Below are positions 38,555 through 43,929 of a stretch of 64,000 bases of DNA, in pieces. Below the pieces are notes generated by a model. That model was not told the origin of the DNA. It did no database searches and worked only from the letters and a program-made list of their open reading frames with translations. A program made the position numbers and the translations under genes. The DNA is from Ruania zhangjianzhongii. Its GTDB lineage: Bacteria > Actinomycetota > Actinomycetes > Actinomycetales > Beutenbergiaceae. The stretch covers positions 4,516,882-4,580,881 of the forward strand of contig NZ_CP042828.1 in NCBI RefSeq assembly GCF_008000995.1. The letters are read 5' to 3'. Each line of letters opens with the position of its first letter. Position 1 is the stretch's first letter.

Positions 38555-40411
38555 TCAGAAGGGTGGTGGTCCGTAGTCGGGTGGGCTGGTGCTGGTGCTG
38601 GGTGGGTCGTTGTCGTTGCCGTTGCCGTTGCCGCTCCTGTTGTCGTTGCCGTTGCCGCTCCTGTTGTCGTTGCCGCGCCTGTTGTCGTTGTCGTTGTCGT
38701 TGGTGGGGGTGCTGTAGCGGGGTTGGTGGGTGGGGTGGGTCAGGGAGGTGGTGGTGCCGTCGGGTTCTCGGCGGTAGCGGTGTCCGGTCGGGGTGGTCCA
38801 TTCGAAGGTGCCGGGTTCGGTTTGGGTGAGGTGGAAGTCGCCGTGGGTCTTGACGGTGTGGTCGCGTGGGCACAGGGGGCCGAGGTTGCTCACTGCGGTG
38901 GTTCCGCCGTGGTCTGGGTTGTCGTGGTTCCACTCCTGGGTGTGGTCGAGTTGGCACTCACTGGCGCGGTGGGAGCAGCCGGGGCGTGCGCAGGTGCGGT
39001 CCCGGGCCAGGATGTGCTCGACCATCGCTTGGGTCGGGCGGTAGCGGGTGTGTCCGACGTCCAGGACCGCGCCGGTGAGTGGGTCGGTGACGATCCGGAT
39101 CCAGTCCCCACCGGCGGCCAGTGCCCGGGCCGCGAGTGGGCTGATCGGGCCGTAGCCCTCCAGACTCGGCACCTGACCGGGGTGCAGGTGCTGCCCGGGC
39201 AACGGCGGCGGCCAGGCACCGTCATCCTCAACCGGCGGTGCACCGCTCTGATCGCGACTGGCACCGCCACCACCCGCAGTGCCACCACCCGTAGTGCCAC
39301 CACCCGTAGTGCCACCACCCGTAGTGTCGCCACTCGCGGTCCAGCCATCCGGGGTGGCGCCGTTCGTTCCGCTGGTTTGTGCTGGGGGCAGGAGCTGGTC
39401 CAGGGGGATGGTGACTGCGATGGTGGGCCGGTGCCCGTGCTGACTACCCAGGGGCAGGCCCGCGCCAGTCCCACCGAGGCAGCCGGTGGCCAGCCCGTGG
39501 TGGGCGATCCCGGCGAGGGCATCGAAGCGCAACTGGTCCACGCAGCGCCCGTCCCCGGCCGCTTTGGCTGCCCGGGCCGCTGCCTGCAGCGCCACATCCA
39601 GAGCGAGCACATCCGCCGCCGGGCCCTCCAGGCGCATCGAGGCGATCCCGTCCGGGAGCGCCCGCGGGCGCGACACCCGCCGCTGGCTCGCCCGGTACCG
39701 GGCCCGCTCAGCAGCCTCGTCAGCATCAACGGCGACCAGGGCCTTGGCCACATCGGAACGCAACTGAGCCACCGTGCGCTCCGGAGCACGGCCCAGCACC
39801 CGGGACTCGACCGTCGCGGCGACCTCGGCACTGACGTGCTCGAGCCCATCGACGATCACCCGCGCGCGGGCAGCGTCGATCACCCCCCGGGCCAGCGCAT
39901 CACCGGTGGCAAAGAGTGCCTCCTCCAGAGCCTTGCCGCGACGGACCAAGTCCATCCCAGCGCGCACCGTGGTCCGCAACCGCACCGCCAGCTCATCACC
40001 GGCCACATCCCGCTGCGTAGCCTCACGCTGTGCCAAAGCCGCGGGCCGCATCGCCTGCCGACGAGACAGCGCAGCCGCCGCCCGCAACTTGACGGCGTGA
40101 GCAGCCGCCTCCACCCGGTCCGCAGCAGCAGCCGCCTCCACCAGCGTCGCCTCATCCGCCACCTCGGTATCCAGCTGCGACAACAGCGCGAACAACTGCG
40201 AATCCACGCTCCGCCGGGCGAGGCGCTCATCAACCGGAAGTACCTGATGAGCACCGATCAGATCGACCAGCGCCCGCTCGGCGACCGAGTCCGCGAGCCC
40301 GGCAAGACCCCCGGGGGAGATCGCAGCCAGTGGCCGGCACACCTCGACCACCGCCAGAGCGGAAGGCCTACCCCGACGGCCACTGTGGTCGAACGTCTGT
40401 GTCATACCCAT
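38555..40411 (-). CDS. DUF222/HNH endonuclease-like protein (13E12 repeat family)
   Basis: This protein of about 618 residues has an N-terminal DUF222 helical domain and an HNH domain (RTCARPGCSHRASECQLDH, then NLGPLCPRDHTVKTHGDF). Two low-complexity parts are striking: Thr/Gly-rich repeats in the middle (15-bp units at 39267-39326) and an Asn/Asp/Gly-rich tail encoded by hexanucleotide repeats (38596-38705). The family is multicopy in actinobacterial genomes and behaves like a dispersed repeat; its biological role is unproven. ATG 40411 or 40405 may be the start; neither has a ribosome site. Confidence 0.82.
   Translation of the reverse strand: MGMTQTFDHSGRRGRPSALAVVEVCRPLAAISPGGLAGLADSVAERALVDLIGAHQVLPVDERLARRSVDSQLFALLSQLDTEVADEATLVEAAAAADRVEAAAHAVKLRAAAALSRRQAMRPAALAQREATQRDVAGDELAVRLRTTVRAGMDLVRRGKALEEALFATGDALARGVIDAARARVIVDGLEHVSAEVAATVESRVLGRAPERTVAQLRSDVAKALVAVDADEAAERARYRASQRRVSRPRALPDGIASMRLEGPAADVLALDVALQAAARAAKAAGDGRCVDQLRFDALAGIAHHGLATGCLGGTGAGLPLGSQHGHRPTIAVTIPLDQLLPPAQTSGTNGATPDGWTASGDTTGGGTTGGGTTGGGTAGGGGASRDQSGAPPVEDDGAWPPPLPGQHLHPGQVPSLEGYGPISPLAARALAAGGDWIRIVTDPLTGAVLDVGHTRYRPTQAMVEHILARDRTCARPGCSHRASECQLDHTQEWNHDNPDHGGTTAVSNLGPLCPRDHTVKTHGDFHLTQTEPGTFEWTTPTGHRYRREPDGTTTSLTHPTHQPRYSTPTNDNDNDNRRGNDNRSGNGNDNRSGNGNGNDNDPPSTSTSPPDYGPPPF
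38596..38705 (-). repeat. GTTGTC/GTTGCC hexanucleotide repeats in the DUF222 gene tail
   Basis: Long runs of GTTGTCGTTGCC-like units encode an Asn-Asp/Asn-Gly tail. Several 18-24 bp blocks are exact duplicates, so length variation by slippage is likely. Confidence 0.85.
39267..39326 (-). repeat. 15-bp tandem repeats inside the DUF222 gene
   Basis: CCACCACCCGTAGTG (first copy CGCAGTG) is repeated four times in frame, encoding TTGGG-type peptides. Confidence 0.9.
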
Positions 40412-40607
40412 CACGCTATACGCCACCACCGACATCCCACACCCACAGTGGAGTGCCAACGAAAATTGGTGCCACACCACTAACCCGAACAACGACCTTG
40501 GAGAGGGCTGCAGGGGCCAGGAGCACCAGCAGTGAGAGAGGAGCTACGGCGGGCCGAGCATCTGACCATCTCGCCACCCCGAACGACCTGCGCGACTACT
40601 GGTCCAG

Positions 40608-41036: not shown

Positions 41037-43187
41037 CTAGAACAACGTGGGCTGCAGACCGAGATCGGTGACATCACGAGCGCGCGGCCCCGCCGTCCCC
41101 TCGGCAGGATCTGACCGCAGCGCCCACCGCCCACTGGGCTGCTCGCCGCGCGGGCGGCCCTCGCGGCGCTCCCCCGGTGCGCCGGGCCTTCGCTCCGTGC
41201 CCCGCTCGACGAATCCGTGCTGCCGTCGCAGCCGCCGCACCCGGCCGGCCAGCCACTCCCGGTACTCACCCGAGGCATAGGACCCCCGTCCGTACAGCAC
41301 CTGGTACTTCGGCACCAGCTCGGGATACTCCCGCCCGAGCCAGGCCAGAAACCACTCCCGCGCGCCAGGCCGCAGGTGCAGCGCACCGACCGTCACCCAA
41401 GCACCGCCCGCCTCGGCCACCGCGGCCATCAGAGCGTCCAGATGCTCGGTGGAGTCGGTCAGCCACGGCAGCACCGGCATGGCCATCACCGTGGGCGCGA
41501 GCCCCGCATCGGCGAGCGCCCGGATCAGCCCGAGCCGGGCCGCCGGCTTCGGGGTGCCCGGCTCCACCCGCTGCTGCAGGTCCGGGTCGAGGAAGGCGAG
41601 TGAGACCCCTACGTCCACGTTCACGTGCTCGGCGGCACGCACCAGCAACGGCAGGTCCCGCCGCAGCAGCGGACCCTTGGTCAGGATGGAGAACGGTGTG
41701 CGCGCCTCGGTGAGCGCTTCAATGATCCCGGGCATCAGCTGGTAGCGGCCCTCGGCCCGCATATAGGGGTCAGAGTTGGTACCCAGCGCCACGTGCTCAC
41801 GAGCCCAGGTCGGCCGGGCGAGCTCGGCCCGCAGCACCTCGGCCACGTTGGTCTTTACCACGATCTGGGAGTCGAAGTCCGCTCCGGCGTCGAAGTCCAG
41901 GTATTCGTGCGTCTTCCGCGCGAAGCAGTTGTGACTTACCACTCCGTTGGCAATGAAGTCCCGTGTCCCGGTCGTGATGTCGACCATCTGGGCCTCGGTA
42001 CCCAGGTCCTCGATCTTGACGACGCCGAGGTCTGCTGACGTCTTCACCGCCGAGCCGAGGATGCCAAGCTTGCGGGTAATTGCCGGGCCCACTTGGTGAA
42101 AGAAGCGCCGGTGCACGCTCCGACCACCCGTGACCCTGACACTGGCCACGCCTGACGTGTTCGCAGGTTCACGGACGTTCGGTAGACCCAGGGCGTCCAG
42201 AGCCGACCCGATGTGGGAAAGGATCTCGTGGTCGCTGTTCGAGATTCTCAACACCCCACCGGAGTACGAACCTTCAGCGTCGAAAACGCCGGCCAGAAAT
42301 CCTCGTTGCCACTCATCGGTTGGCCGCTCCGGCCATGTGATGGCTCGGCAAATCGTCGTGTAGTCAGATCGTTTTGACGTGACTAGCGCGTCCATCGGAC
42401 GCCGTGCCGCCGTACCCACCGCATACGGGCGGAGGAATGTAGAAACCCCTTCTTGTTCGAGGTACTGCCGGCTCCGAAGGAGGGCTTCGCCATCGGCGAG
42501 TGCCAGGCGGAAGTGCGTGACCCGATACGGTTTGCCCGATTCCTTCCGCACGTAGGTCTTGTCAAGGAGCATGCCGTCACCGCGGACCATTCCAGCGAGA
42601 TAGCCTCGCCGGTAGACGGAGCCACCTCGAGGGCGTGCATAGTTCACCGCCGCCATGCCGAGACCGAACCCCATCAGCGAATTGCCCGTCGTCAGGTAGG
42701 CCCGCTGACCCTGGCTACGAGGGAGCGGCGCGACATGCTTCCACCCTCGCGCCGTCAGGAAGCGATGATCCCCGCTGGCAACGATCTCGGTTCCATCGCG
42801 AAGGGTAGTCCGGTACGCACGTTTGCGCGTTCGCCAAGCCGCGAGCACCGTCGTCTCGACATACCTGCGGTACGTGCCATCCGGCCGGGTGCCGACCACC
42901 CGGTCCCCGACGTCGATGTCCCTGATCGGCTTCTGCCGCCCATCCGCCATCAGGACCAGGGTGTCCGGGCTCAGGCAGTACACACACTGGTGGAGGCAGC
43001 CGCGGGTCGGGTTGATCGTCCACTCGAACGGCATCGATGAGTTCTTCGGTACCCGGTTGAGGGCGCTCTTGCACAGCACCTCGTGGAAAGTGACGCCGTC
43101 GAACTCCGGTGTGCGCACTGTCCGCACCAAGCCCTTCAGCGGCACCAGGGCTGGGCCCTCCGTCAGCTTCTGCGCATCCCATCGCAT
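41037..43187 (-). CDS. intein-containing Rv2578c-family radical SAM protein
   Basis: The 716-residue precursor consists of a 366-residue radical SAM host protein split by a 350-residue intein. The host has WTINPTRGCLHQCVY before the intein and CFARKTHEYLD after it; splicing restores the CxxxCxxC cluster motif, whose third Cys is the intein +1 residue. Later host motifs are ALGTNSDPYMRAEGRYQLMP and FSILTKGPLLRRDLPLL, as in Rv2578c. The reaction is unknown. The start at 43187 (MRWDAQKL) lies 3 bp from an SOS-box-like palindrome. Without splicing the protein could not bind its 4Fe-4S cluster. Confidence 0.9.
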   Translation of the reverse strand: MRWDAQKLTEGPALVPLKGLVRTVRTPEFDGVTFHEVLCKSALNRVPKNSSMPFEWTINPTRGCLHQCVYCLSPDTLVLMADGRQKPIRDIDVGDRVVGTRPDGTYRRYVETTVLAAWRTRKRAYRTTLRDGTEIVASGDHRFLTARGWKHVAPLPRSQGQRAYLTTGNSLMGFGLGMAAVNYARPRGGSVYRRGYLAGMVRGDGMLLDKTYVRKESGKPYRVTHFRLALADGEALLRSRQYLEQEGVSTFLRPYAVGTAARRPMDALVTSKRSDYTTICRAITWPERPTDEWQRGFLAGVFDAEGSYSGGVLRISNSDHEILSHIGSALDALGLPNVREPANTSGVASVRVTGGRSVHRRFFHQVGPAITRKLGILGSAVKTSADLGVVKIEDLGTEAQMVDITTGTRDFIANGVVSHNCFARKTHEYLDFDAGADFDSQIVVKTNVAEVLRAELARPTWAREHVALGTNSDPYMRAEGRYQLMPGIIEALTEARTPFSILTKGPLLRRDLPLLVRAAEHVNVDVGVSLAFLDPDLQQRVEPGTPKPAARLGLIRALADAGLAPTVMAMPVLPWLTDSTEHLDALMAAVAEAGGAWVTVGALHLRPGAREWFLAWLGREYPELVPKYQVLYGRGSYASGEYREWLAGRVRRLRRQHGFVERGTERRPGAPGERREGRPRGEQPSGRWALRSDPAEGTAGPRARDVTDLGLQPTLF
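41928..42977 (-). mobile_element. LAGLIDADG intein inserted in the radical SAM motif
   Basis: The intein runs from Cys71 to Asn420 of the precursor (350 residues). Block A is CLSPDTLVLMADG; block B has GTEIVASGDHRFLT with His71 of the intein; the C-terminus is VVSHN followed by Cys+1, so all splicing residues are present. Two homing-endonuclease motifs are intact: YLAGMVRGDG (126-135) and FLAGVFDAEG (227-236). The endonuclease may therefore be active. By eye its DNA is less GC-rich than the host gene. Confidence 0.93.
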
Positions 43188-43188
43188 C

Positions 43189-43218
43189 CACTCATTCGAA
43201 CATATATTCGAATGAGTG
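43189..43218. promoter_or_regulatory. SOS-box-like palindrome (candidate LexA site)
   Basis: Twelve-bp perfect arms (CACTCATTCGAA and its reverse complement) flank CATATA. The inner 16-mer TCGAACATATATTCGA differs at one position from the mycobacterial SOS consensus TCGAAC-N4-GTTCGA. It lies immediately upstream of the radical SAM start and also faces no other start, so LexA would control that gene. Confidence 0.75.
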
Positions 43219-43260
43219 TCGAGGTAGCGACACGCCAATCGCCCGGAGGGGCGACCCTGA

Positions 43261-43929
43261 TCAGGGCGAGGGGCGCTCGCCCAGCTGCGCGCCGCCGTCG
43301 GGAATCGCACGCTGTTCGCCAGCCCGGCCCTTCTCCAGCACCTGCCCGATCACACCCCGCGTGTGTGCCTCGCTCAGCCCGAGGTTCGTGCCGATGAACG
43401 CGGCCGCCTCCGCCTGCTGCTGAGCGAACTCCCCCGTGTGCATCCCCACCTTCACCGCAGCGGTCAGGTAGGCCTCCGCGCCTTCGGTCCCGAGCACGGC
43501 ACCTGCCTGCTGTAGTGGCACACCCGCCTGCCCCTGGGGCACACGCATATCGCTGCGCAGACCGTCCGCACCGACGTCCCCTGCCCCGATCCAGTCCAGC
43601 GCGCGCAGCGCTGCCGGGATACCGGGTTCGGGGGTTCGGCTGGCAGCCAGGATCACCGCCATCGCCGCCCGCATCCCGCTGATCAGCGCCTGCTTGCTAG
43701 CCCCCTGGGTCGGGGCACTCAGCACGTCCGGCACGAACTTGGTCTTGCAGGTCTGACACTTCACCACTTCGCCCACCCGGTTCAGCGGGATGATCGGGAT
43801 GAAGAACAGGCTGAAGAACCTCCGTCGGTGCGAATGCACATACTCCCGGTCATCCGCGCACTGCGGGCAGTAGAACACCCCAGTACCGATCTGACCGAAG
43901 GTGAGCACCACCAGGCCGAAGATGATCAT
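43261..43929 (-). CDS. zinc-ribbon and TerB-like protein
   Basis: The 222-residue protein begins with a short hydrophobic segment and a zinc ribbon with Cys21/24 and Cys58/61 (CPQC, CQTC). Between the pairs is RRRFFSLFFIPIIPLNRVGE, a pattern of the zinc-ribbon family. The rest is helical and resembles a TerB-like region (KQALISGMRAAMAVILAA). Function is unknown. Confidence 0.7.
   Translation of the reverse strand: MIIFGLVVLTFGQIGTGVFYCPQCADDREYVHSHRRRFFSLFFIPIIPLNRVGEVVKCQTCKTKFVPDVLSAPTQGASKQALISGMRAAMAVILAASRTPEPGIPAALRALDWIGAGDVGADGLRSDMRVPQGQAGVPLQQAGAVLGTEGAEAYLTAAVKVGMHTGEFAQQQAEAAAFIGTNLGLSEAHTRGVIGQVLEKGRAGEQRAIPDGGAQLGERPSP

Follow-up and report, generated by a model that had tools for sequence, protein, structure and literature searches.

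The window, i.e. the whole stretch of 64,000 nucleotides of Ruania zhangjianzhongii DNA that was analysed, contains on its reverse strand the gene for an intein-containing radical SAM precursor of the Rv2578c family (41040..43187), which comprises 716 aa from an ATG start codon at 43185-43187 and is followed by a stop codon at 41037-41039; the open frame as a whole (41037-43310) amounts to 757 aa when counted from a GTG at 43310. The precursor matches the family model NF038136 ('intein-containing Rv2578c family radical SAM protein') over residues 2-660 with 796.8 bits (cut-off 700), the model of the Rv2578c extein family NF038135 with 498.4 bits (cut-off 430) and the Pfam model Radical_SAM with 37.7 bits (cut-off 29.5). 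That intein-containing Rv2578c proteins are annotated elsewhere, as the preliminary description had noted, is borne out by the first of these matches, and the locus belongs, as a well-formed member, to this already catalogued family and is not a new one: the window protein shares the host family, nothing essential differs, and relatives also carry mini-inteins of 146-196 aa. Downstream of the radical SAM gene, a DUF222 protein is encoded at 38558-40492 of the window on the reverse strand; its match to HNH is weak (21.1 bits, cut-off 21.4).

The intein (41928..42977, reverse strand) was delimited from its stop-free translation and the family models and has 350 aa, beginning with CLSPDT and ending with VVSHN. 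It sits between NPTRGCLHQCVY, which is the end of the N-extein (42978..43187), and CFARKTHEYLDF; the C-extein (41040..41927) starts with CFARKTHEYL and according to the family and Pfam models contains the remainder of the radical SAM domain. In the usual naming of intein blocks and splice residues, class 1 inteins are characterised by Cys or Ser at position 1, a His in block B, an Asp in block F, a final His-Asn and a Cys, Ser or Thr at position +1, whereas class 3 inteins lack the Cys1 nucleophile. The translation of the window shows Cys1 (codon 42975-42977), block B as ASGDH with His71 (intein residues 67-71, 42765..42779), the block F Asp and the terminal His349-Asn350 within blocks F and G (MVDITTGTRDFIANGVVSHN, 41928..41987), as well as a Cys at position +1 (codon 41925..41927), all on the reverse strand; a class 3 intein is ruled out by the presence of the Cys1 nucleophile. 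Two LAGLIDADG motifs, GYLAGMVRGDG (intein residues 125-135, 42573..42605) and GFLAGVFDAEG (intein residues 226-236, 42270..42302, the latter also read from the LAGLIDADG_3 match), each contain an acidic residue, and the Pfam model LAGLIDADG_3 scores 32.4 bits (cut-off 22.5), as in LAGLIDADG homing endonucleases. The preliminary description of the 350-residue intein as complete, with every splice residue and two LAGLIDADG motifs in place, is thus exact on translation. The match to intein profiles, on which it had made its claim depend, holds for the four blocks A, B, F and G as well as for TIGR01445 intein_Nterm (30.0 bits, cut-off 24.5) and fails for Pfam Intein_splicing, with 32.4 bits under the gathering cut-off of 35.8, which is a model score and no defining property of class 1 inteins. 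By sequence the closest solved structures are the DnaB and gp41-1 inteins, with weak similarity (best 2.4e-05).

The intein lies precisely within the CxxxCxxC motif, directly before its third Cys, and since the +1 codon reads Cys, the third cluster Cys of the mature protein is also the +1 nucleophile, both as first described. Counted from the translation, the other two cluster Cys codons, -7 and -3, are found at 42996-42998 and 42984-42986 (reverse strand), and the spliced product, read from both extein ends, contains CLHQCVY followed by C, i.e. CxxxCxxC. However, the precursor itself reads C(-7) LHQ C(-3) VY C(1), i.e. CLHQCVYC, with Cys1 of the intein occupying the place of the mature Cys+1. 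The further claim that iron-sulfur assembly is impossible before splicing has therefore to be abandoned in that form, because Cys1 stands, correctly spaced, at the position of the third Cys. As judged from the translation, the intein nucleophile is part of CxxxCxxC and also of a CxxC together with a host cysteine, which makes Cys1 a candidate third cluster ligand in the precursor; splicing should still be required for activity, since the remaining radical SAM domain lies past the intein. The CxxxCxxC spacing at the precursor level and Tyr-1 are present in 47 of 47 Rv2578c inteins tallied, for which the parsing pattern required Cys at the motif places, yet none of 59 Rv2578c loci failed it; with a similar pattern, 77 of 80 named loci could be parsed, two of the three failures being cut by a contig end. 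This precursor-level motif is the mechanistic point worth keeping, as it yields a precise biochemical prediction.

With respect to the distribution of the intein, all eight species of the genus that were examined have the gene, two of them with a full intein (the window species and G410), two with a mini-intein of 172 aa each (G412 and G409) and four without any insert. Because these four congeneric species hold the gene empty at that very codon boundary, a chance insert is no candidate. In the family, 17 of 24 genomes have an Rv2578c-family gene, and in the order the NF038136 cut-off is passed in 23 of 396 genomes. A class-wide draw gave an Rv2578c-family match in 177 of 394 genomes, and among the matches listed the match span indicates an insert in at least 31 places, at least 11 with spans of about 1.8-2.0 kb (full) and at least 20 with about 1.4 kb (mini). 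Named carriers among the best 80 include Promicromonospora, Antribacter, Microbacterium, Cryobacterium, Micromonospora, Lentzea, Blastococcus, Solirubrobacter and others, and all Rv2578c-family inserts that were read share one codon boundary. Cys1, the block B His, the block F Asp, the final His-Asn and the +1 Cys are conserved in 47 of 47 Rv2578c inteins (20 full, 27 mini), and the Cys equivalent to +1 is found in all 12 empty Rv2578c alleles tallied.

In genus g55, a 152-aa mini-intein without endonuclease is present in 12 of 12 species examined, with omega values of 0.285 for the mini-intein and 0.136 for the extein. Its retention without homing may reflect a benefit, or merely the difficulty of an exact deletion inside a catalytic motif. 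In a tree built from the splicing part of 47 inteins, whose branches have weak support, the full and mini states change at least seven times, three of these changes being forced, and a repeated loss of the endonuclease is therefore probable.

Presence or absence of the intein likewise changes often in relation to the host protein. A quick extein tree of 84 proteins, comprising 37 empty, 20 full and 27 mini alleles in a sample weighted towards carriers and selected empty relatives, whose counts therefore are not frequencies, requires at least 21 such changes, of which 15 are forced by well-supported branches. Silent divergence is higher in the intein than in the extein in five of six pairs of full alleles from neighbouring species chosen by the analyst (contradicted by no more than 1 in 1000 bootstraps), with dS values above 1 being near saturation and imprecise: 1.323 [1.02-1.89] vs 0.525 [0.41-0.67] for the window species and G410, 1.094 vs 0.599 for G289/G367, 1.135 vs 0.427 for G662/G724, 1.145 vs 0.651 for G084/G119 and 1.385 vs 0.646 for G106/G382. 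The sole exception, G692/G444 (0.228 vs 0.297), looks vertical. Restricted to the splicing part, the dS between the window species and G410 is 1.035, and the window intein is closer to the mini-intein of G412 than to the full intein of G410, whereas the window extein is closer to that of G410. Comparisons of full with mini alleles are less distinct, with an unclear difference between the window species and G412 (0.700 for the shared intein residues vs 0.883 for the extein) and no clear excess for G410 and G412 (0.997 vs 0.841).

In pairs of mini-inteins, in turn, the intein does not clearly exceed the extein (0.227 vs 0.170 and 0.359 vs 0.307 for intein and extein, respectively), and high intein dS is therefore no inherent property of intein codons. 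Over 66 pairs of mini-inteins from genus g55, the mean dS of intein and extein is 0.330 and 0.342, respectively, with a rank correlation of rho 0.80, which fits a co-inheritance of the mini-inteins with the host gene. For the full inteins, the simplest reading of the divergence data is that neighbouring species acquired them, or had them replaced, separately. Against this reading, third-position differences flanking the site gave no sign of a co-conversion tract beside the intein.

Taken together, the locus very probably carries a class 1 intein with a LAGLIDADG homing endonuclease, placed where inteins of the Rv2578c family usually insert. In favour of this are the intact splice residues, the constant site in the Rv2578c family, and the occurrence of empty, mini and full alleles within one genus. 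Cutting, splicing and the effect on the enzyme we infer from the sequence as follows. The endonuclease would cut intein-less alleles at the DNA encoding CxxC-F-A-R, and repair of the cut allele would copy the intein in; this target would stay stable, because its codons specify the [4Fe-4S] motif. In the precursor, Cys1 is expected to attack the -1/1 bond and the +1 Cys to accept the N-extein, upon which Asn350 would cyclise and the joined CLHQCVYCFARK motif would be restored. The endonuclease may later be deleted, leaving a mini-intein that is inherited vertically. According to PMC12924846, the phage Samy integrates into a gene of the Rv2578c family in Streptomyces ambofaciens ATCC 23877, so that two kinds of mobile element exploit one gene family.

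As to possible vectors, a tblastn search of phage sequences with the window intein gave 119 records, none covering 80% of it and all below 60% identity, and among plasmids two records with 99-100% coverage and 24-30% identity, namely a Streptomyces linear plasmid and CP134701, around whose match no host protein could be named; on these grounds, carriage of the window's very intein by phages or plasmids was rejected. A viral gene named 'radical SAM protein-like' (KX853510, 19211-22480) was likewise discarded, as by eye it appears to be a helicase with an intein and no radical SAM host; its name may derive from intein similarity.

The same Cys is used as an intein site in other radical SAM families. 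In the Streptomyces linear plasmid found by tblastn (L109, 1839-3674), an intein interrupts a DUF5131 frame (PF07505, 320.6 bits) directly ahead of the final Cys in GCDRVSKGCDN|C, and inteins are found at the corresponding place in a DUF5131 protein of a viral contig (L197, 235.6 bits) and in one from another genome of the phylum (L200 in G943), the latter assigned to the family by eye. The plasmid gene is without an annotated gene in the (incomplete) table and adjoins a gene called three-Cys-motif partner TcmP; its best phage matches, in Gordonia phages with about 72-74% identity, span the extein ends only, as if intein-less. Four viral contigs (L111, L112, L195 and L196) have an intein before the same Cys in a radical SAM protein, which in family scans of L111 and L112 gives weak matches to phrog_13321 and, below cut-off, to the PA0069 and Rv2578c models. 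A QueE gene (L201, 713-2665, reverse strand; TIGR03365, 309.2 bits, cut-off 206.1) contains an intein at GCDYRCSW|S...SRN|CDSK, which starts with Ser1 and carries Arg instead of His at the penultimate position, i.e. SRN vs the usual SHN.

Finally, a spore photoproduct lyase-like gene (L205 in G1039, 614-2371) has an intein at GCAMACSY|C, and its two halves score 39.4 and 46.0 bits with PF20903 (cut-off 27) and 133.2 and 239.4 bits with TIGR03886, each below the whole-protein cut-off. It consists of two frames, the first ending in the N-terminal part of the intein with a stop after 1240 and the second starting near an ATG at 1832 with the C-terminal part, with a possible antisense HNH frame between the halves (HNH_2, 19.8 bits, cut-off 21); the arrangement resembles that of a split intein whose two parts flank an endonuclease. 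In its genus, four of nine genomes match the family: this one, two with an intact gene without insert and one with an in-frame TAG.

The relations among the inteins at radical SAM sites are partly resolved by the available trees. In a reduced tree of 37 rows, which has no outgroup able to place the intein of L112 or those of DUF5131, the Rv2578c and viral radical SAM inteins share one side of a branch (100/99.8), whereas in a quick, long-branched tree of 51 rows the DUF5131 inteins group with phage terminase and portal inteins, with L112 on that side too; the host names of the comparison inteins come from record annotation or were read off the flanks rather than assigned by family scans. These trees do not support a single intein clade for all radical SAM sites and give L112 and the DUF5131 inteins no firm place.

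For a base rate with unselected hosts, a search with TIGR01445 at 1e-5 in 198 genomes of the phylum, among them that of the window species, yielded 138 places, of which 11 lie in a radical SAM motif, all of them Rv2578c; this is no gauge of enrichment over other conserved codons, and the model misses some inteins, the QueE intein being below its cut-off and several Rv2578c inteins absent from its list. The 11 places were set apart by overlap with Rv2578c matches, the window's and three more being read, and a six-frame pattern scan of the other 127 junctions gave seven pattern matches, none judged to be a real radical SAM junction. Since all 11 radical SAM places are Rv2578c, other radical SAM hosts are rare.

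MoaA is a radical SAM enzyme as well. According to two reviews (PMC3922620, PMC10663303), splicing of the intein of Pyrococcus abyssi MoaA (Callahan et al. 2011) is controlled by a native disulfide between Cys-3 and Cys1. This intein resembles the window intein in this pair of an N-extein Cys-3 and an intein Cys1, and differs from it in being archaeal and in another host family. Judging from the Cys-3 numbering, it would occupy an equivalent position within its own Cys motif. By this precedent a redox switch on the window enzyme is plausible: oxidation would form a Cys-3/Cys1 disulfide blocking the first splicing step, and reduction would let the oxygen-sensitive enzyme mature when it is able to work. 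The spacing Cys-3/X/Tyr/Cys1 in 47 of 47 Rv2578c inteins is in agreement with such a switch; however, the cluster fixes Cys-3 anyway, so that its conservation is uninformative. Similarly, the endonuclease-free mini-intein under purifying selection in all 12 g55 species might point to a function, but such selection would be seen with any host gene that is of use. Of the two M. smegmatis DnaB inteins, one has a redox-responsive catalytic Cys and is reversibly inhibited by oxidants, also in vivo, as stated in the literature, which assigns DnaBi1 to class 3; the mycobacterial DnaB inteins differ from the window intein in host and site, and DnaBi1 also in class, as Cys1 is present in the window intein. 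Against a switch, furthermore, stand the 37 of 84 relatives in the non-random sample without an intein and the QueE intein with Ser1 at the corresponding place. We consider this regulation possible, if rather unlikely; a regulatory function is not needed for the data, because these 37 sampled relatives do without the intein and most full pairs look mobile. The genome of the window species also encodes a DnaB with two inteins (G000:C2:5012986-5014779), one beginning with Ala after the P-loop GK and the other preceding SIEQD.

A broader proposal is that the codon preceding the third Cys of radical SAM motifs is a recurrent niche for more than one intein lineage, in which the Cys1-containing precursor motif would trap the nucleophile as a disulfide or by metal, gating maturation by redox or iron. 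Hosts in such a niche would be Rv2578c, the viral radical SAM proteins, DUF5131, QueE and the spore photoproduct lyase-like protein, to which MoaA might be added from what the reviews say. No report of a shared third-Cys site was found in a limited, mostly non-subscription literature on inteins in radical SAM proteins, spore photoproduct lyase, 7-carboxy-7-deazaguanine synthase and Rv2578c, DUF5131 being left out; according to PMC5050341, mycobacteriophage inteins generally lie in functional motifs. The intein-containing tetraether lipid synthase Tes (NF045703), likened here by name only, is another curated intein-bearing radical SAM protein. We regard this proposal in its full form as doubtful, with a small chance of being right.

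Still more improbable is a gate by cluster or metal, in which the precursor CxxxCxxC, made up of two host Cys and Cys1, would bind [4Fe-4S] or Zn, sequester the nucleophile and couple splicing to metal status. The motif spacing is intact in 47 of 47 Rv2578c precursors, and zinc inhibits the splicing of other inteins according to a review, but the intein must fold around Cys1, the remaining radical SAM domain lies beyond it, and the Ser1 variant of QueE would be without the third ligand. That gene and intein are a decaying remnant of an unused protein, for which one might cite the Samy-interrupted gene of S. ambofaciens ATCC 23877, where the authors saw no marked harm (PMC12924846), is highly improbable in view of the frame open over 757 aa, the retention of all catalytic residues and an extein omega of 0.08 between the window species and its congener G410.

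The window intein is thus best regarded as a homing element, and as a single locus it is ordinary. The set of loci, in contrast, constitutes a useful natural experiment, with one site being empty, full or mini within one genus, a mini-intein without endonuclease in all examined species of genus g55, and the same Cys used in several families including viral ones; this recurrence of inteins at the third radical SAM Cys is the comparative point worth keeping. On matched species pairs, the question of whether such inteins are selfish or regulatory becomes testable.
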